A stretch of 64,000 nt of DNA from Microbacterium mangrovi. Its GTDB lineage: Bacteria; Actinomycetota; Actinomycetes; Actinomycetales; Microbacteriaceae. The notes under the pieces were generated by a model. It saw only the letters and a program-made list of their open reading frames with translations. It searched no databases and was not told the DNA's origin. Positions 2,465 through 12,960 of this stretch are shown here, one piece after another. Within the stretch, counting starts at the first letter, position 1, and every line of letters starts with the position of its first letter. The stretch covers positions 124,001-188,000 of the forward strand of contig NZ_JTDK01000010.1 in assembly GCF_000802305.1 (NCBI RefSeq). Direction: 5' to 3'. The position numbers and the translations under genes were made by a program.

Positions 2465-5400
2465 ATGGATACGAGAGCACGCGACGCCCTGCCGGGCGAG
2501 AGCCCGGTGCATCCGGACGCCGACCAGGCGGCGGTCCTCGCGCTCGCTCCCGGCGCGTCCGGCACCATCGCCGGCGCTCCCGGCTCGGGCAAGACCCGCA
2601 CGCTCGTGGGCCGGATCGAAGCGCTCATCGCCCGCGGTGCGGACGCCGACGCGATCATCGCTCTGACGCCGAGCCGCGTGACGGCGACGGCCCTGCGCGA
2701 TCGCATCTCGCTGGCGACCGGCGCAGCCACGCAGGGCGCACCGGCCCGTTCCCTCGTGTCGTTCGCCTTCCAGATCGTGCGCGCGGCGGCCGTGGGACGC
2801 GGCGCCGCCGCACCCCAGCTGCTGACCGGAGCGGATGAAGACCAGATCATCCAGGAGCTGCTGCTCGGAGACGCCGAGGACGAGGATGCCGGCCTCTCCC
2901 GGTGGCCTGCCCAGCTGGCCGCGCCGGTGCGGGCCACTGCCGGGTTCCGCGCCGAGGTGCGGGCGTTCTTCGCGGAGTGCACGGAGCAGGGGATCGGACC
3001 GAGCGAACTCGCGCGCCTCGGGTCGGCCGCGGATGTGCCGGAGTGGTCCGCCCTTGCGTCCTTCTTGTCCGAGTACACCGAGGTGCGGGCGGCGATGCGC
3101 GGCGCGCACCGCGACGCCGCGGGCCTGGTCCGTGAGGCGGTGCAGCTCCTGCGGTCGGCGCCGGACTCCGACCTCGGTGCCGTCGGGCGCATCCGGACCA
3201 TCCTCGTCGATGACGCACAGGAGCTGACCCTCGGCGGCGTGCAGCTCGTCGAGGCCTGTCGCGAGCGGGGGATGGCCGTGCTCGCCTTCGGCGACCCGGA
3301 CACGTCCACGGGGGCGTTCCGCGGCGCGCGACCCGAGAACTTCGCGCGCCTCGTGCGTGCCCTCGGCGACATCCACGTCCTCCGCGGGGCCCACCGGCTG
3401 GCGCCGGCCATCGGGGACGTCGTGCGCACCCTCACCCAGCACATCGGCGCCGCCGGAGTCGTCGCGCACCGGATCCCGCCCCGTGACCCCGCCGATCCGG
3501 ACGAAACCCCGGCGGTCCGGTGCATCACGGTGTCGTCGGCCGCGGAGGAGTTCGACTACATCGCACGCGCCCTGCGCGAGCGCCACGTTCATGACGACGT
3601 CGAGTGGTCGCAATGCGCCGTGATCGCCCACGACACCCGTCAGGTGGCGGCGCTGCAGACCGAGCTGTCGGCGCGGGAGGTGCCGGCGCGGGCGACCGGA
3701 GCCGGCGCCGCACCGGCACAGGTGCGACCGGTGCGCGACCTGCTGACGGTCGTCGAACTCGCGTCGCGTGCGCCCGCAGACCGTGAGCCGGGGGAGCTGA
3801 CCGATGCGCTTCTGGGCATCGTCGGCGGGCTCGACCCCATCCAGCTGCGCCGGCTCCGCACCGCACTGCGCCATGCCGAACTCGGTGCCGGCGGTTCGCG
3901 GTCGGCCCGCGAGCTGATGGCGTCCGCGTTCGCGCATCCCGTCGAGTTCGAGTTGCTGCGCACGCGGGAGGGCGCGCGGGCCGCCCGCCTGGCCAAGACA
4001 CTCGCGACGCTTCGCGAGCAGCTGGGCGAGGAGGCATCCGCTCACGAACTCCTGTGGACCGCATGGCAGGGCGCGGGCGTCGCAGGTGCCTGGCAGCAGG
4101 CATCCCGGTCGGCCGGGCCCGTGGGTGTGCAGGCGGGCCGCGACCTCGACGCCGTGGTCGCCCTGTTCCAGTCCGCCAAGCGGTTCGGCGAGCGGCGCCC
4201 CGACGAGGACCCGCTCGTGTACGTGCGCGGGATGCTCGACAGCTCGGTCGCCGACGACAGGTTCGACACCAGTGCCTCCGTGCGCGGGGTCGCCGTGCTG
4301 ACCCCCGCCCAGGCGGTCGGGTGCGAGTTCGACACGGTCGTGATCGCCGGCCTCCAGGACGGCGTGTGGCCGAACACCCGATTGCGCGGCGGTCTGCTGC
4401 AAGCGTGGCGGCTGGCGGAGACGCGTGCCGACCCGACCGGGACGGGCGCCGCGGTGATCGACCGGAGGCGGGAGGCGCTGCACGACGAGCTCCGGCTGCT
4501 CGTCCGCGCGGTGTCGCGTGCGTCGCACCGCGTTCTGGTCACGGCCGTCGACGACGACGACACGGGCCCGAGCCCCCTTTTCGAATTGCTGCCCGAGGCG
4601 GAACACGGCGAGGTGTCGCACCCGCTGTCGCTGCGCGGTCTGGTCGCCATGCACCGCCGCACGCTCACCACCGGCTCGGGCGAGCCCGAGCACGCCGCCG
4701 CGCAGCTTGCGCTCCTCGCCGACGCGCGGGTGGCGGGCGCAGATCCGGATGAGTGGTACGGCATCCTTCCGCCGACGACGCGGGCGAGCCTCCGCGACCT
4801 CGACGAAGAGGATGTCCGTGTGTCGCCGTCCAAGCTCGATCAGCTCGCGACCTGTCAGCTCGACTGGGTGATCCGCGACCTCGGAGCCGATCTCGGAGGC
4901 GTCACGGCGGGGGTCGGCATCCTGATCCACGAGGCCTTCGAGCACGCGTCCCTCGCGACTCAGCTGCCGGCGGAAGACGACCTGTGGCGACGCGTGGATG
5001 CCCGGTGGGGCGAACTGGAGTTCGACGCCGCCTGGGTGGGGCGCGCCGAGAAGACGCGGGCTCGCGACCTGGTGCACCGGCTCCACCGGTATCTGCGTGA
5101 TTTCGCCGCGGCGGGCGGGACCGTGCTCGGTGCCGAATCGCAGTTCCAGGTGCCGGTCGCCCTCGCCGAGCCCGGGCATCCGCACGGTGCCGTGCTGAGC
5201 GGGACGATCGATCGCGTGGAGCTCACTCGCGACGGCCGCGTGGAGATCGTCGACCTCAAGACCGGTAAGTCCGAAGGGCAGACCGATGCCGCCGTCGCGG
5301 GCAACGCGCAGCTCGCGGCCTACCAGCTCGCCTACGACGCCGGTGCGATCCCCGGCGCCCCGCCGGGGGTCCCGGGCGGAGCGAAACTCCTCGTGGTGCG

Positions 5401-5608
5401 CCCGAAGGCGGCGACCAAGCCGTACGTCACGCCCCGCCAGCCCCCGTTCGACGAGCCGACCAAGGAGGCCTTCATCGCACGCGTCCGCGAGGCAGCCGAC
5501 ATCATGCGCGGCACCGAGTTCCTGGCACCCTACGAAGAGCACTGCCGGGCCGACCACAGCTACGGGATGTGCCGCATCCACACGGTGGGGGCGGTGAGTC
5601 GCGCATGA
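2465..5608 (+). CDS. adnA: AdnA-like helicase-nuclease subunit
   Basis: 1047 codons from ATG 2465 (alternative GTG 2459). The protein is a UvrD/Rep-type motor fused to a C-terminal RecB-family nuclease. With AdnB it would resect double-strand-break ends for recombination. Walker A GAPGSGKT is at residues 37-44. Motif II is the unusual LVDDAQ instead of DEYQ, and motif VI is weak (RAVSRAS), fitting the auxiliary motor role of AdnA in mycobacteria. The nuclease has IHEAFEH, SGTIDRVEL, IVDLKTGK and QLAAYQLAY, a complete H-D-D-K/QxxxY set. C797, C1027 and C1036 match three of the four cysteines of an AddB-type iron-sulfur staple, with Asp at 1030 where the fourth is expected. The stop overlaps the adnB start (ATGA). 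Confidence 0.9.
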   Translation: MDTRARDALPGESPVHPDADQAAVLALAPGASGTIAGAPGSGKTRTLVGRIEALIARGADADAIIALTPSRVTATALRDRISLATGAATQGAPARSLVSFAFQIVRAAAVGRGAAAPQLLTGADEDQIIQELLLGDAEDEDAGLSRWPAQLAAPVRATAGFRAEVRAFFAECTEQGIGPSELARLGSAADVPEWSALASFLSEYTEVRAAMRGAHRDAAGLVREAVQLLRSAPDSDLGAVGRIRTILVDDAQELTLGGVQLVEACRERGMAVLAFGDPDTSTGAFRGARPENFARLVRALGDIHVLRGAHRLAPAIGDVVRTLTQHIGAAGVVAHRIPPRDPADPDETPAVRCITVSSAAEEFDYIARALRERHVHDDVEWSQCAVIAHDTRQVAALQTELSAREVPARATGAGAAPAQVRPVRDLLTVVELASRAPADREPGELTDALLGIVGGLDPIQLRRLRTALRHAELGAGGSRSARELMASAFAHPVEFELLRTREGARAARLAKTLATLREQLGEEASAHELLWTAWQGAGVAGAWQQASRSAGPVGVQAGRDLDAVVALFQSAKRFGERRPDEDPLVYVRGMLDSSVADDRFDTSASVRGVAVLTPAQAVGCEFDTVVIAGLQDGVWPNTRLRGGLLQAWRLAETRADPTGTGAAVIDRRREALHDELRLLVRAVSRASHRVLVTAVDDDDTGPSPLFELLPEAEHGEVSHPLSLRGLVAMHRRTLTTGSGEPEHAAAQLALLADARVAGADPDEWYGILPPTTRASLRDLDEEDVRVSPSKLDQLATCQLDWVIRDLGADLGGVTAGVGILIHEAFEHASLATQLPAEDDLWRRVDARWGELEFDAAWVGRAEKTRARDLVHRLHRYLRDFAAAGGTVLGAESQFQVPVALAEPGHPHGAVLSGTIDRVELTRDGRVEIVDLKTGKSEGQTDAAVAGNAQLAAYQLAYDAGAIPGAPPGVPGGAKLLVVRPKAATKPYVTPRQPPFDEPTKEAFIARVREAADIMRGTEFLAPYEEHCRADHSYGMCRIHTVGAVSRA

Positions 5609-8600
5609 CGGACGCCGTGTTGCCGCGGACGGCGCTGATCGCGCCGGAGGTCATCGCGGCCGCGCTCGGGCAGCCGTCCCCCACGTCGGAGCAGTCCGCC
5701 GTGATCGCGGCGCCGCTGGGCCCGGCCCTGGTGGTGGCCGGAGCCGGCAGCGGCAAGACCGAGACCATGGCCGGGCGGGTCGTCTGGCTCATCGCCAACC
5801 GGCTCGTGGAACGCGACGAGGTGCTCGGGCTGACCTTCACCCGCAAGGCGGCGGGGGAACTGGCGGAACGGCTGCAGAGGAGGCTCGCGCGCTGGAGCCA
5901 ACTGGAGCGGCGCGGGCTCGTGCCGCACCTGGCCCGCCTCCACGACGAGGGCCGCCTCGCGGAGCTCGCCGAGGCCTCGGCATCCGAGGCCGAACGCGCC
6001 GCCGTGCTCGACCGGCTCGCCACAGCCGTCGAGGCGGAGCCCGCGGCGTCCGATCCCGATTCCCTCCTGCGTCGGCCGACCGTCATGACCTACAACAGCT
6101 TCGCGGACGGCATCGTGCGCGAGAACGCCGTGCGGATCGGTCGTGACGCCGAATCCGCGGTGCTGTCCGAGTCGGCGGCCTGGTTGCTCATGCGCCGGGT
6201 GGTCTTCGCGTCGGACGACCCGCGGCTCGAGGAACGGCCGAACGCCCTCAGCACGATCATCGACGCGGCGCTGCGGATCGCGCGCGACGGGGTCGACAAC
6301 CTGTGCGACTTCGACGCGCTGGAACGGTTCCCGCTCGAATTCGCGCGGGTGCGCGAGATCCCCTCGACGTCCGCGCGCACGACGGTCTATGCGGACATCG
6401 CGCGGGGCGCCGACGCGGTGGACGGACTGATGGTCCTGACCGCCCTTGCCCGCGAATACGATGCGCACAAGCGCCGACTCGGTGTCATCGACTTCACCGA
6501 TCAGGTCGCGGGCGCCATCGAGATCGTGCGCTCGCATCCCTCCGTCGCCGAGGAGATCCGCCAGCAGTATCGCGTCGTGCTCCTGGACGAATACCAGGAC
6601 ACCTCGGTGGTGCAGACCAGCCTGCTCGCCGCCTTGTTCGCCGATACCGCGGTGATGGCCGTCGGGGATCCGCATCAGGCGATCTACGGCTGGCGAGGGG
6701 CGAGCGCCGGGAACCTCGGCGACTTCGCCGGCGCATTCTGCGCCGACCCCGATGATTGCCGGCAGTACAGCCTGCTCACCAGCTGGCGCAACAGCAGGCT
6801 CGTTCTCACCGCGGCGAACGCCGTGCTCGCGCCCCTCGACCCGCCGGTCCCGGTCGGAGAGCTCCGCCCCCGGCCCGGTGCGGGGGACGGTGTCGTCGAC
6901 ATCGCGTCGTGCGCGGACCTCGACGAGGAGGCCGCCGCGGTGGCGGACTGGTTCGCGCACGTGCGCGCCGAGCGCGCATCGGCCGGACGCTCGACCACCG
7001 GTGCGGTGCTGTTCCGGAACAAGAAGCACATGGTCCGGTTCGGCGACGCCCTCGCGGCGCGGGGCGTGCCGCATCGGATCCTGGGTCTGGGCGGTCTGCT
7101 CTCCACGCCCGAGGTCGTCGACGTCGTGAGCGCGCTGCGGGTCATCAGCGATCCCTCGGCGGGGTCCGCCCTGATCCGCCTGCTGGCAGGCCCCCGGTGG
7201 GCGATCGGACTCGCCGACCTGCGCCAGCTCGAGAAGCTGTCGCGGCGCATCGCCGCGCACGACAGCACCGGGCGACAACTCGATCCGGACATCGCCGAGC
7301 GCGTCCGCACGTCCGCGGATGCCGACCGGGGCTCCCTCATCGACGCTCTCGACTTCATGCTGCGCCGCGACGACGCCCACGCCTGGCTGCGCGGCTTCAC
7401 CGCGGCCGCCCGGGAACGGCTGCGGGACGCAGCGGCCGTCTTCGCAGCGCTGCGGCAGGCCGCCGGGCTTCCGATCGCCGATCTCGTGCGCCTGGTCGAG
7501 CAGGAGCTCCGCCTCGACATCGAGCTGGCCGCCAACGAAGCGCGTGGCCCGGCGCGCACGGCGGGGGCTCAGCTTCGCGCGTTCGTCGACGAGGTGCACG
7601 CCTTCCTCGCCGCCGACGATTCCGGTTCGCTGTCGAGCCTGCTCGCGTGGCTCGACCACGCCGAGCAGCTGGATGAGTTCGCCCCGCGCACCGAGCCCCC
7701 CGAAGACGACGTCGTCCAGCTGCTCACGATCCACGGCTCGAAGGGGCTCGAATGGGATGCCGTCGCGGTCGTGCGCATGGTCGAAGACGAGCTGCCCACC
7801 GGCGCCAAGGGCAAGAGCGGCTGGCTGTCGTTCGGCGTCCTGCCGACCGTGTTCCGCGGCGACTCGGCGTGGCTGCCCGAGTTCGCCTGGCGGGACGCCC
7901 AGACCCAGCAGGAACTGAAGGCCGCGCTCGACCGGTATCAGGAGGAGAATCGCGCCAAGCAGCTCGACGAGGAGCGACGACTCGCCTACGTCGCGGTCAC
8001 GCGGGCGCGAGATCACCTCCTGCTGAGCGCCTCGCCGTGGTCGGGCACGACCCGGCCGCGGGCCACCAGCCGGTTCCTGCAGGAGGTCGCGGACGCCCTC
8101 GGGACCCCTCGGGAGGACGCGGAGACGGGCGAGAACCCGTACGACGGCGAGCGGCGCACCCTCACCTGGCCGCTGGACCCCCTGGGCGTGCGTCGCCCCG
8201 CGGTCGTCGCGGCGGCCGCCCGGGCGCAGGACGCGCTGACTGCGCCGCGCGTTTCCGCCGACGACGACCTCGCCCTCCTGCTCGCCGAGCGGGAGGCGCG
8301 CAAAGCGGCGGCATCCGGGTCCGCACCCGTGCGCATTCCGGCATCCCGCTACAAGGACTTCGTCACGGACTACGAGGGGACCATCGCCGCCATCGAGCGC
8401 CCGATGCCCGAGCGGCCGTACCGCGAGACTCGCCTGGGAACCCTCTTCCATGCGTGGGTGGAACAGCGATCCGGCATGGTCGGCTCCTCCGCCACCCTCG
8501 ACGAGGCACTCTGGGAGCAGGACGACGAGCTGTTCGCACCCGAGAACGGAGTCGCCTCCCGGCCCGGCACGTCAGCCGAGGCGCGCACGGACACCGGCGG

Positions 8601-8946
8601 GGAGCACGACGCGCTGCGGCGACTCCAGGCGGCCTTCGAGAAGTCCGAGTGGGCTTCGCTCAAGCCCCTCGAAGTGGAGACCGAGATCGACTTCCGGTTC
8701 GAAGGCGTCGGCGGTGGCGCGCATGTGGCGATCTGCAAGCTCGACGCCGTCTACCGCCGCGGCGACCGGATCGAGATCGTGGACTGGAAGACCGGCGCAC
8801 CGCCGTCGAGTGCGTCCGATCGCGAGGCGCGGCTCCTCCAGCTGCAGCTGTATCGACGGGCGTACCACGCCAAGCACGGCGTTCCGCTCGACCAGATCGA
8901 CGTCGCGCTGTACTACGTCGCGCACGATCTCGTCATCCGGGACTGA
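5605..8946 (+). CDS. adnB: AdnB-like helicase-nuclease subunit
   Basis: 1113 codons from ATG 5605, which overlaps the adnA stop and implies translational coupling. This is the lead motor of the AdnAB end-resection complex. Walker A AGAGSGKT is at residues 45-52. The canonical helicase motifs TFTRKAAGE, LLDEYQDTS, VGDPHQAIYGWRG, TIHGSKGLEWD and YVAVTRARD are all present. The C-terminal RecB-type nuclease shows LGTLFHAWVE, CKLDAVYRRG, EIVDWKTG and QLQLYRRAY, so it appears catalytically intact. Unlike AdnA it has no terminal cysteine cluster. A contiguous long minus-strand ORF across this gene is a composition shadow and is not annotated. Confidence 0.93.
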   Translation: MTDAVLPRTALIAPEVIAAALGQPSPTSEQSAVIAAPLGPALVVAGAGSGKTETMAGRVVWLIANRLVERDEVLGLTFTRKAAGELAERLQRRLARWSQLERRGLVPHLARLHDEGRLAELAEASASEAERAAVLDRLATAVEAEPAASDPDSLLRRPTVMTYNSFADGIVRENAVRIGRDAESAVLSESAAWLLMRRVVFASDDPRLEERPNALSTIIDAALRIARDGVDNLCDFDALERFPLEFARVREIPSTSARTTVYADIARGADAVDGLMVLTALAREYDAHKRRLGVIDFTDQVAGAIEIVRSHPSVAEEIRQQYRVVLLDEYQDTSVVQTSLLAALFADTAVMAVGDPHQAIYGWRGASAGNLGDFAGAFCADPDDCRQYSLLTSWRNSRLVLTAANAVLAPLDPPVPVGELRPRPGAGDGVVDIASCADLDEEAAAVADWFAHVRAERASAGRSTTGAVLFRNKKHMVRFGDALAARGVPHRILGLGGLLSTPEVVDVVSALRVISDPSAGSALIRLLAGPRWAIGLADLRQLEKLSRRIAAHDSTGRQLDPDIAERVRTSADADRGSLIDALDFMLRRDDAHAWLRGFTAAARERLRDAAAVFAALRQAAGLPIADLVRLVEQELRLDIELAANEARGPARTAGAQLRAFVDEVHAFLAADDSGSLSSLLAWLDHAEQLDEFAPRTEPPEDDVVQLLTIHGSKGLEWDAVAVVRMVEDELPTGAKGKSGWLSFGVLPTVFRGDSAWLPEFAWRDAQTQQELKAALDRYQEENRAKQLDEERRLAYVAVTRARDHLLLSASPWSGTTRPRATSRFLQEVADALGTPREDAETGENPYDGERRTLTWPLDPLGVRRPAVVAAAARAQDALTAPRVSADDDLALLLAEREARKAAASGSAPVRIPASRYKDFVTDYEGTIAAIERPMPERPYRETRLGTLFHAWVEQRSGMVGSSATLDEALWEQDDELFAPENGVASRPGTSAEARTDTGGEHDALRRLQAAFEKSEWASLKPLEVETEIDFRFEGVGGGAHVAICKLDAVYRRGDRIEIVDWKTGAPPSSASDREARLLQLQLYRRAYHAKHGVPLDQIDVALYYVAHDLVIRD

Positions 8947-8966: not shown

Positions 8967-10190
8967 TCAGCGGTTGTCGGCCGCGCGCTCGTCGGCTTCG
9001 GAGGCGTCCTGACGGATCCATTCGCCCATGTCGACCGGGACCGTCGCGCCGCCGTCGGCCTGCTCGTCGAGCGCGATGGCACCGGTCTCGTCGAAAGAAT
9101 CGGTCTGCTGATCGTGACCGCGGCCGGCGTCGGACTCCTCGAAGGCGCCGAGCTCGTCGGGGTCGTAGGCGTCGGTCTGCATCGACGTGTCCGCCGCCAG
9201 GCGCACCTCGGGCACGCGTCCGGCGCGAGCGAGCGCATCGTCGATCTCGATCGACTGGGTGCGCGTGAGGTCGTCGTCCTGCACGCTGTCGGCGAGGGCG
9301 GTGAGCAGACCGACCGCGTCGGCCACGATCTCGTCGCTTCCGATGTCGTCGCCGTGGACGAGCCACTTCGCGAACTCGAGCTCGGCGTACAGCCGGGCGC
9401 GGCCGTGGATGCCGGCATCCGGGGCACGCACGCTCGCCTGCGTGTACGCGTCGAAGACGTCCAGTGCGGCCGTGGGAGCCGACGACAGCCACTGCAGGTC
9501 GAGAGCGGGGTCGCCGACGGCCAGGCCGTGCCAATCGAGGATGCCGGTGACCCGCGGCTCCCCGTCGCTGTCCTCCAGCAGGAAAGCGTCGGACGACGCT
9601 CCGCCCAGGATGACGGTGGACTCGAAGCGCCACAGGTGGTCGGCAGCGGCGGCGTGACTCCAGCGCGACAGCAGGGACACCGGGATCCGATGCAGTGCGG
9701 CGACCCGATCGAGCAGGCGCGACACGGACTGGCGCACCTGCTCGGGCGACTGGACCGTGAGGCCGTCGCCGGAGACGACGGATGCGGGCAGGGCGTGCAC
9801 CGCCGCGAGCGCCTGGCCGATCGCGGTGGCCACCCCCCGGCCGGCGGGGACCTCGGCGGCATCCACGCGGTATCCGGCGACGAAGTCGGTCACGGCCGCG
9901 AATCGGCCGTCGACCGTGGTCTCGCCGATCATTCGCGGGGCGGTCATCCGGAGCTGGCCGAGCACGCCCGGAGTCAGCGCCCGCAGCGCGACCGCTTGAT
10001 CACGCAGCTCCTTCTCGGCGGTGTCGTCGGCAGGAACCCGCACGACCAGGAGGCGATCGTCGTCGAGACGCACGACGGCACTGTCGAACCGGCCGCCCGC
10101 GCCCTCCGTCAGCTCAGAGACCCCCACGACGACGGCCTCCGGAAGAGCCGATGTCACCGACGCGGCTAGAGTGAGAGGTGAGCGTGCCAT
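8967..10190 (-). CDS. APH-fold phosphotransferase-like protein, probable pseudokinase
   Basis: 407 codons from ATG 10190, with TACCCT 6 nt upstream (leaderless start). The sequence follows the aminoglycoside/macrolide phosphotransferase fold: an N-lobe ending in LLVVRVPADD, then a C-lobe with the metal-binding motif ILDWHGLAVGDPALDLQW. The catalytic loop, normally HGDxxxxN, reads LGGASSD at about residues 195-201, so the catalytic Asp and Asn are absent. The last ~90 residues are an acidic tail. Database entries for such neighbours usually say macrolide 2'-phosphotransferase; drug resistance is not supported here. It lies between adnB (20 bases away) and nudC and is divergent from nudC. Confidence 0.85.
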   Translation of the reverse strand: MARSPLTLAASVTSALPEAVVVGVSELTEGAGGRFDSAVVRLDDDRLLVVRVPADDTAEKELRDQAVALRALTPGVLGQLRMTAPRMIGETTVDGRFAAVTDFVAGYRVDAAEVPAGRGVATAIGQALAAVHALPASVVSGDGLTVQSPEQVRQSVSRLLDRVAALHRIPVSLLSRWSHAAAADHLWRFESTVILGGASSDAFLLEDSDGEPRVTGILDWHGLAVGDPALDLQWLSSAPTAALDVFDAYTQASVRAPDAGIHGRARLYAELEFAKWLVHGDDIGSDEIVADAVGLLTALADSVQDDDLTRTQSIEIDDALARAGRVPEVRLAADTSMQTDAYDPDELGAFEESDAGRGHDQQTDSFDETGAIALDEQADGGATVPVDMGEWIRQDASEADERAADNR

Positions 10191-10202
10191 GCCCCCAGGG
10201 TA
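10167..10202. promoter_or_regulatory. Overlapping divergent promoters between the phosphotransferase-like gene and nudC
   Basis: Plus-strand TAGAGT (10167-10172) and minus-strand TACCCT (10197-10202) each look like -10 hexamers. The predicted start sites are near 10179 (plus) and 10190 (minus). The two transcripts would therefore overlap by about a dozen bases at their 5' ends instead of diverging cleanly. No convincing -35 elements are visible. Confidence 0.4.
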
Positions 10203-10252
10203 GGTCGGGCGCGAACACCGAGCAGAGCGCCACGCCCGCGACGGAGGTTTCG

Positions 10253-11200
10253 ATGACGGCACAGCAGAGCCCGCAGACGGAGGCGCAGCCCCGGTTCGAT
10301 CGGGCCGCGCACGAGCGTTCTCGACCGGACCTGCTCGAAGAGGTGCTGGCGAACTCCTCGACGCAGGTTCTGGTGATCCACCGCGACGGCGCGCCGCTGG
10401 ACGGGGACCGGCTGCACCTGCGCAGGCTCTCCGCACTGCCGCGACTCCCGCATGCACCGGAGTTCGCCTTCCTCGGCCGAGTCGGGGCGGCAGCGGTGGT
10501 CGCCGCCGTCTACCCGGTCGAAGCCGAGCTGGACTCGCTCGCCGACGGCGCCGCGTGGGCGACGGTGCGCACGCACGGAGCGACGCTCGACGCGTCCGAC
10601 GCCGAATTGCTCGTGACAGCCGTCTCGCTGGGTGCGTGGCTGCTCGATTCGGCCTTCTGCCCGCGCTGCGGCGCACGGACGGAGGTCGTCCAGGCGGGGT
10701 GGGCGCGGCACTGCGGCAACTGCGGACGCGAGCACTTCCCGCGCACCGATCCGGCCGTCATCATGACCGTGACCAGTGCGGAGGACCCCGACCTGCTGCT
10801 GCTCGGATCGAACGCGCTGTGGGGTCCGCCGCGGTACTCGTGCTTCGCGGGATTCGTGGAGGCGGGCGAGTCGCTGGAGTCGGCGGTTCGCCGAGAGCTC
10901 GCCGAAGAAGCGGGCGTGGAGATCGTCGACGAGCACTACCGGTGGTCGCAGGCCTGGCCGTACCCCCGGTCGCTGATGCTGGGGTTCGAGGCGCGTGCGG
11001 CATCCGGCTCGGTCGCGCGACCCGACGGGGACGAAATCGTCGACGTGCGCTGGTTCACGCGACGCGAGATCGCCGACGCGCTCGAGCGCGGCACGACGTG
11101 GGATGCCTCCGAGCCGCCGGCCGATCCCGAGGCTCTGCAGCTGCCCGGCCCGGCCTCCATCGCCTACCGCCTCATCGCGGACTGGTGCCGACGCGGATGA
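10253..11200 (+). CDS. nudC: NAD(H) diphosphatase, NUDIX
   Basis: 315 codons from ATG 10253, chosen because ACGGAGG lies 6-7 nt upstream; an in-frame GTG at 10178 right after TAGAGT is a leaderless alternative. NudC hydrolyses NADH to NMNH and AMP and can remove NAD caps from RNA. A four-cysteine zinc ribbon (CPRCG...CGNCG) is followed by the NUDIX box GFVEAGES...RELAEEAG. The signature SQAWPYPRS corresponds to the SQPWPFPxS motif that marks NADH-specific members. Its stop overlaps the uvrD2 start, so the two genes are likely co-translated. The same order occurs in mycobacteria (Rv3199c-Rv3198c). Confidence 0.95.
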   Translation: MTAQQSPQTEAQPRFDRAAHERSRPDLLEEVLANSSTQVLVIHRDGAPLDGDRLHLRRLSALPRLPHAPEFAFLGRVGAAAVVAAVYPVEAELDSLADGAAWATVRTHGATLDASDAELLVTAVSLGAWLLDSAFCPRCGARTEVVQAGWARHCGNCGREHFPRTDPAVIMTVTSAEDPDLLLLGSNALWGPPRYSCFAGFVEAGESLESAVRRELAEEAGVEIVDEHYRWSQAWPYPRSLMLGFEARAASGSVARPDGDEIVDVRWFTRREIADALERGTTWDASEPPADPEALQLPGPASIAYRLIADWCRRG

Positions 11201-12960
11201 GCGGGTCGGCACTGGACGGACTGGACGACGCCCAGCGGGAGGCCGCGTCTGCGCTGCGCGGGCCGGTGTGCGTGCTCGCGGGTGCCGGGACCGGCAAGAC
11301 CCGGGTGATCACCCACCGCATCGCCCACGGGGTCGAAACCGGCGCGTACACGCCGAATCGCGTCATGGCGGTCACCTTCACGAGCAAGGCGGCGGGGGAG
11401 ATGCGCGGACGGCTGCACCGTCTCGGCGTGCCGGGGGTGGCGGCCCGCACCTTCCACGCGGCGGCGCTGTCTCAGCTGAACTTCTTCTGGCCGACGGTGG
11501 CCAAGGACTCCGCCCCCGGCATCGTCGACAACAAGGTGAAGCTGCTCGCGCACGCCGCCGATTCCATCGGCCTGGACCTCGACCGCCCGACGCTGCGCGA
11601 CGTGGCGGCCGACATCGAATGGCGCAAGGTCACGCTCCGATCTCTGGATGCGTACGCCCATGCGCGCCCCGGCGGCATCGGCGGCCTTCCCGTGGAACGC
11701 GTCGTGGCGCTGCAGCGCGCGTATGAAGCGCTGAAGGACGAGCGACGCCAGCTCGACTTCGAGGACGTGCTCCTCGCGTGCGCCGGCATGCTCGAGGCGG
11801 AGCCGCGCGTCGCGGCCGCGGTGCGCGAGCAGTACCGGCATTTCACGGTCGACGAGTACCAGGACGTCTCGCCGCTGCAGAACCGCCTGCTCGACCTGTG
11901 GCTCGGCGATCGCCGCGACCTCTGCGTGGTGGGCGACGCGAGCCAGACCATCTACTCGTTCACCGGCGCGGACGCCTCGTTCCTGCTCGACTTCGAACGG
12001 CGTCACCCGGATGCCCGCGTCGTGCGCCTGGAGCGCAGCTATCGATCGGCGCCGACCGTGCTGGCCGTCGCGAACGAGCTCATGCGCGGCCGCCCCGGTG
12101 CCCTCCGCCTGACGCCGGCCCGCCCACAGGCGGAGGAGGCGGTTCCGCCGCGTCCGTCCGTCACCGCGTACCTGGACGACGAGCTCGAGGCCCGCGGTGT
12201 GGCGCAGGCGGTCGCGACGCAGCTGAAGTCGGGAGCCGACCCCCGCCAGATCGCCGTGCTGTACCGTACGCACGCCCAGTCGCTGGCCCTCGTCGAGGCC
12301 CTGAGCGCCAAGCACGTCGCCACCACGGTGCTCGGCGGTCGCCGGTTCTTCGACATCCCGGAGGTCCGTCAGGCCGTGATGGCCATCCGTGCGGCGGCCG
12401 TCGCCCCGACGACCGGCTCGCTGGTGCTCAGCGTGCGCGACGTGCTGCGAGGGCTCGGTCTCACGGACGCCCCGCCGCCCGCCGGCGGGGCGCTGCGGGA
12501 GGCCTGGGAGGCGCGGGCCGCCCTCCTGAGGCTGGCGGAGGAGTCGCCGGAGGACATGACGCTGCGGGCATTCGGCGATGAGCTGCAGCGGCGTGCCAAG
12601 GATCAGCACGAGCCGACGGTGAGAACCGTCACGCTGGCGACCCTGCACGCGGCGAAGGGGCTCGAGTGGGACCACGTGCACCTCGTCGGAATGGCCGAGG
12701 GCCTTCTGCCGATCTCCTACGCGACGACTTTCGAGCAGGTCGACGAGGAGCGCCGCCTCGCGTACGTCGGCATCACGCGCGCCGCGCGGACGCTCTCCAT
12801 GTCGTGGGCGCGAGGCGGCGGTCGGCAGGAGCGGCTGCCGTCGCGCTTTCTGCGAGAGATCGGCACGAGCACCGTGGATGAGGTGAACATGCGGCGATCG
12901 ACCGCCGGTGTTCGTCGGCCTCCAGCGTCACCACCTGCACGTCGTTCGCCGGTGCGGTGA
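11197..12960 (+). CDS. uvrD2: UvrD2-type superfamily 1 DNA helicase
   Basis: 587 codons from ATG 11197, overlapping the nudC stop. All SF1A motifs are present: Walker A AGAGTGKT, TFTSKAAGEM, VDEYQDVS, VGDASQTIYSFTGA, LHAAKGLEWD and YVGITRAAR. It is a 3'-5' helicase of the UvrD2/Rep class. The conserved core ends at about LPSRFLREIG (12837-12866). There is no C-terminal HRDC domain such as mycobacterial UvrD2 has. The last ~30 codons are basic and Pro-rich and are antisense to the 3' end of the next gene. The reading frames of the two convergent genes overlap by 188 bp. Confidence 0.92.
   Translation: MSGSALDGLDDAQREAASALRGPVCVLAGAGTGKTRVITHRIAHGVETGAYTPNRVMAVTFTSKAAGEMRGRLHRLGVPGVAARTFHAAALSQLNFFWPTVAKDSAPGIVDNKVKLLAHAADSIGLDLDRPTLRDVAADIEWRKVTLRSLDAYAHARPGGIGGLPVERVVALQRAYEALKDERRQLDFEDVLLACAGMLEAEPRVAAAVREQYRHFTVDEYQDVSPLQNRLLDLWLGDRRDLCVVGDASQTIYSFTGADASFLLDFERRHPDARVVRLERSYRSAPTVLAVANELMRGRPGALRLTPARPQAEEAVPPRPSVTAYLDDELEARGVAQAVATQLKSGADPRQIAVLYRTHAQSLALVEALSAKHVATTVLGGRRFFDIPEVRQAVMAIRAAAVAPTTGSLVLSVRDVLRGLGLTDAPPPAGGALREAWEARAALLRLAEESPEDMTLRAFGDELQRRAKDQHEPTVRTVTLATLHAAKGLEWDHVHLVGMAEGLLPISYATTFEQVDEERRLAYVGITRAARTLSMSWARGGGRQERLPSRFLREIGTSTVDEVNMRRSTAGVRRPPASPPARRSPVR

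Follow-up and report, generated by a model that had tools for sequence, protein, structure and literature searches.

The AdnA of M. smegmatis holds a [4Fe-4S] cluster; it has an upstream Cys together with a tail C-x2-C-x5-C. What becomes of such a site when the middle tail Cys is an Asp? The question is raised by the adnA gene at positions 2465 to 5608, forward strand, of a 64,000-nucleotide stretch of Microbacterium mangrovi DNA, the whole of which is called the window here. A first-pass annotation had offered two answers, that the cluster has an Asp ligand or that it was lost while the Cys spacing remained.

The adnA gene and its C-terminal tail

The gene encodes a UvrD-type motor followed by a C-terminal PD-(D/E)XK nuclease. 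An alternative GTG start at 2459 gives a protein two residues longer than that from the ATG at 2465, from which residues are numbered here. Among solved structures the top sequence matches were 7sjr, 9np6 and 6ppj (E 1e-106 to 1e-108), chains that we take to be AdnA of M. smegmatis, and the C-terminal domain matched PDDEXK_1. An adnB-like partner gene with a UvrD helicase and PDDEXK_1 lies next to it on the same strand (5605 to 8946). Judged from its sequence, the product belongs, as the AdnA subunit, to a double-strand-break resection enzyme of the AdnAB type; this identity had been proposed before and is borne out by the structure chains, the domain match and the neighbouring gene. The host genome contained a single match to AdnA at E ≤ 0.001. 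The best named matches to the window AdnA were from Microbacterium at about 60% identity, and genomes of the same genus gave like results, which places the host genome with Microbacterium. The catalytic residues D916, D930, K932, Q949 and Y953 are all present. Further downstream in the window (10178 to 12960), the translations, judged by eye, resemble another UvrD-type helicase and a pyrophosphatase of the NudC type whose C-x2-C motifs are paired.

The tail of the protein reads HCRADHSYGMCRIHTVGAVSRA. Reading from the ATG confirmed the residues originally pointed out, namely C797 (4853 to 4855) upstream and C1027-x2-D1030-x5-C1036 in the tail (5543 to 5545, 5552 to 5554 and 5570 to 5572, respectively; all on the forward strand). 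The window AdnA does not have the four-Cys staple, an upstream Cys plus a tail C-x2-C-x5-C: it carries three of the four Cys, with D1030 at the middle place. A profile comparison with the four-Cys set pairs C1027 with the first tail Cys, D1030 with the middle one and C1036 with the last, in agreement with the initial description of an iron-staple-type nuclease domain in which one Cys position is missing. M. smegmatis AdnA (chain A of 6ppj, 6ppr, 6ppu, 7sjr and 9np6) is homologous over the full length and its nuclease fold is alike, but the window AdnA has Asp in place of the middle Cys and a His immediately before the first tail Cys. The iron-staple nucleases AddB, Dna2 and Cas4 likewise share the fold and the layout of upstream and tail Cys; their four Cys contrast with the three Cys plus His, loosely spaced, of the window AdnA type. 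Section 14 of PMC7430649 and, for Cas4, a passage of PMC5704561 describe the four Cys of iron-staple nucleases as strictly conserved.

Distribution and linkage of the site residues

AdnA nuclease domains were gathered from named genomes, from Microbacterium (99 genomes) and from the family (150 genomes, 85 genera), most family and genus members being added by coordinates; from the class and order searches the best 30 matches each were kept as loci. Of 350 loci, four had no nuclease-domain match and three no complete C-terminus, leaving 343 rows, 326 of them distinct, which are not fully independent because the genome sets overlap. Classed by tail Cys alone, the distinct rows comprised 40 with a four-Cys C-x2-C-x5-C tail, 179 with three Cys, 93 without the Cys and 14 of a Micrococcaceae form. 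The nuclease catalytic residues were retained in every class, and the five named above in 179/179 three-Cys rows.

All 93 Cys-less rows were from Microbacteriaceae. Nine of them bear one tail Cys elsewhere, none in column 1027 or 1036; that of L220 is near 1036. None of the 40 four-Cys rows came from this family, nor was such a tail seen among the family members examined. The three-Cys rows belong to Microbacteriaceae with the exception of four (of 179) that lack the label, one titled Planococcus (60% identical to the window AdnA) and three unplaced bins. Among further loci outside the family, 12/12 best matches and 9/10 rows of f41 and f43 were four-Cys; 6/6 Micrococcaceae (f2) and 4/4 f42 rows were not. 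Decayed tails outside the family were observed in L386 (f41; CSVC, with the last Cys gone) and L397-L400 (f42). The adnA of Microbacterium elymi (L062) has, in the complete genome, a broken reading frame ahead of the nuclease domain, either a genuine lesion or an error of sequencing; this locus was excluded from the C797 counts.

When 178 three-Cys and 92 Cys-less proteins were aligned and scanned column by column, only four positions proved to be present in all of the first group and none of the second: C797, H1026 (5540 to 5542, forward strand), C1027 and C1036. Because the sorting used the tail Cys only, the linkage of C797 and H1026 is independent of it. C797 was present in 178/178 readable three-Cys rows, which goes beyond chance, and in 0/93 Cys-less ones, and the upstream residue was also Cys in every readable four-Cys row; H1026 was present in 179/179 and 0/93, respectively. 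In an out-of-sample set of 14 further family genomes, ten had C797 with H-C-x(5-11)-C, four had none of these and none was mixed, which brings H1026 to 189/189 rows bearing the site (10/10 of the later members). Partial sets of the four residues were found neither among the 270 aligned rows nor among these 14. At the level of genera, the site was present in 29, absent from 55 and mixed in none (84 of the 85 genera, g82 and also genome G103 being left out). Three Cys and one His are kept or lost jointly, as a Cys3-His site should be. The original grouping of C797 with C1027 and C1036 is upheld by this all-or-none pattern across 270 aligned rows, and the outcome named at the outset as refuting, a Cys pair not kept in close orthologues, was not seen: every Microbacterium row read retains the pair. 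The first list of site residues was right in its three Cys but overlooked H1026.

The next His in the scan, H1039 (5579 to 5581, forward strand), reached 0.994 in the three-Cys group versus 0.837 in the Cys-less one. It follows C1036 as C-x2-H, a common zinc-binding spacing, and its presence in 178/179 three-Cys rows would suit a Cys3-His site with H1039 as the fourth ligand in place of H1026. Yet it is absent in four of the ten later members, which keep the other residues, and retained in 78/93 rows that have no site. Since those four members lack H1039, H1026 is the better fourth residue, and ligation by H1039 appears extremely unlikely. The sole three-Cys row in which H1039 is replaced, by Gln, is L118.

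Residue 1030 and the nature of the site

The two tail Cys of the window AdnA are spaced x8, as they are in 139/179 distinct three-Cys rows; 40/179 have x7, x9 or x10, and among the ten later members the spacing runs from x5 up to x11. The spacing once called exact is therefore so in the window AdnA and in those 139 relatives, but not in the others. In the x8-spaced rows, residue 1030 is Glu in 63, Asp in 31, Pro in 30, Ala in five, Arg, Gln and Ser in two each, and Gly, Trp, Phe and His in one each. The 122 Microbacterium rows have Glu in 55 and Asp in 28, with Ser, Ala, Gly or Pro in five and another spacing in 34; Pro occupies the position in 29 of the 57 rows from outside Microbacterium.

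An Asp-ligated [4Fe-4S] cluster, with D1030 in the role of the middle Cys, would account for the acidic residue in 83/88 x8-spaced Microbacterium rows and for where D1030 falls on the four-Cys profile, namely at the middle Cys. It is at odds with the 34/122 Microbacterium rows that are spaced otherwise, with the five that have Ser, Ala, Gly or Pro and with the Pro that prevails in other genera. Moreover, an acidic residue is better conserved one column earlier, at 1029 (Asp in 146/179), where the window AdnA has Ala. Pro is unable to act as a ligand, so residue 1030 cannot hold the site together family-wide, and we regard an Asp-ligated cluster as very unlikely. The other initial answer, a lost cluster with the spacing left behind, is contradicted as well: it is the spacing that drifts, and in rows that have the site neither H1026 nor any of the three Cys varies.

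The joint behaviour of the four residues points to another explanation. In Microbacteriaceae, the four-Cys iron staple was probably converted into a putative Cys3-His site, which would hold either zinc or an Fe-S cluster ligated by one His, and this site was then lost repeatedly. We infer metal binding by these four residues, with H1026 as a ligand, and a structural role for the site. C797, close to where the nuclease fold begins, and the tail residues H1026, C1027 and C1036 would together pin the domain, the metal site tying the C-terminal tail back onto the nuclease fold. H1026 would substitute for the lost middle Cys, the C1027-C1036 loop would be free in length and residue 1030 would be no ligand. 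The whole site would later have disappeared from many lineages, with the nuclease catalytic residues kept.

Several points count against the Cys3-His reading. Many relatives lack the site, so not every AdnA requires it. Adjoining residues, here His-Cys, are uncommon as ligands of one metal, and H1026 could be a second-shell residue. If the latter applied, the three Cys, which preserve the staple layout, might by themselves hold a [4Fe-4S] or [3Fe-4S] cluster whose fourth iron is open or solvent-bound; three-Cys clusters of this kind occur in aconitase-type and radical SAM proteins. We consider this unlikely, given that H1026 is linked as tightly as the Cys are (179/179 and 10/10 rows with the site, 0/92 without) and that a spacing of x5 to x11 is loose.

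The AlphaFold2 model of the isolated nuclease domain had a mean pLDDT of 89.7. It superposed on M. smegmatis AdnA with Z 23.3 and rmsd 5.0 over 280 residues, as far as the last tail Cys of the latter, residue 1037, and matched AddB (4cej, Z 16.1), Dna2 (5ean, Z 13.7) and Cas4 (8d3l, Z 12.6). By block, the pLDDT was 84 for model residues 281-290, which end with C1027, 62 for 291-300, which hold C1036, and 41 beyond; in a four-Cys control, block 291-300 contained all three tail Cys and had a pLDDT of 92. The low values in the tail are either evidence against a well-defined site or the mark of a variable-length loop modelled without metal. The former would fit a protein that binds no metal at all, its three Cys and His being a relic of the lost staple, or a redox or disulfide pair derived from it, and 93 distinct relatives do manage without the site. 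Relics, though, are expected to go residue by residue, and partial sets are missing from all 270 plus 14 rows; three Cys plus a His would also be an odd composition for a disulfide. A site free of metal thus seems quite unlikely.

Proposed remodelling of the staple in Microbacteriaceae and Micrococcaceae

FastTree trees of 324 and 338 rows were built on the motor domain, with the site's own columns excluded. On the motor-domain tree the site state switches six times, four of these on well-supported (starred) branches, and C797 follows every time; a sign test over the four well-supported changes gives p = 0.125, the independent events being few, though with no exception. The iron staple has probably been remodelled in Microbacteriaceae, where the state of the site changed in parallel several times. 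A His before the first tail Cys was found in 7/40 four-Cys rows, including L348 and L350, which the tree places closest to the family. The H-C-x2-C-x5-C of these nearest rows is a possible intermediate, and the His may have been present before the middle Cys went.

Micrococcaceae AdnA likewise has three Cys and an invariant His, but all four within the tail: in 20/20 sequences (L063-L065, L068, L069, L072-L074, L077, L079, L081, L157, L328, L349 and L391-L396) Ser takes the place of the upstream Cys, and in the tail the His stands ahead of C-x5-C-x2-C. A Cys3-His set confined to the tail in this way would leave the domain unstapled. As a fuller and more tentative proposal, to which we give somewhat less than even weight, a zinc Cys3-His staple replaced the [4Fe-4S] cluster in Microbacteriaceae, a separate tail-only Cys3-His set arose in Micrococcaceae, and complete loss occurred repeatedly.

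Two general causes of these changes were considered and rejected. A deficit in Fe-S assembly does not agree with the SUF core family, found in 10/10 chosen genomes with and without the site, nor with the endonuclease III Fe-S motif, found in 9/10 of the same genomes (absent in G177). A dead nuclease is contradicted by the retained catalytic residues; one row that looked exceptional, L412, has GRADLLQ at the D position and IDIKTSR at the D-x-K position.

According to section 14 of PMC7430649, the iron staple is critical to the structural integrity of the nuclease domain, at least in AddAB. For the Cas4 protein Pcal_0546, which has four Cys and a [2Fe-2S] cluster as against the three Cys and His of the window AdnA, the abstract of PMC4176176 reports that Cys mutants lost the cluster with DNA cleavage unaffected; on that account the staple need not serve catalysis. 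In the open-licence literature searched, titles and the beginnings of abstracts yielded nothing on altered or lost AdnA staple ligands, and the terms iron, Fe-S, cluster, cysteine and zinc do not occur in PMC13309787.

As a repair gene the window adnA is ordinary, but its site is real and unusual, and it illustrates that inferring an Fe-S site from residual Cys spacing can mislead. Within one bacterial order, AdnA has a four-Cys staple, one of two distinct Cys3-His sets, or nothing, with the catalytic residues retained throughout, so that the reason for clusters in these nucleases becomes testable with natural relatives. If the zinc-staple reading is true, AdnA would provide a natural series, Fe-S, Cys3-His and none, for probing what the staple does.
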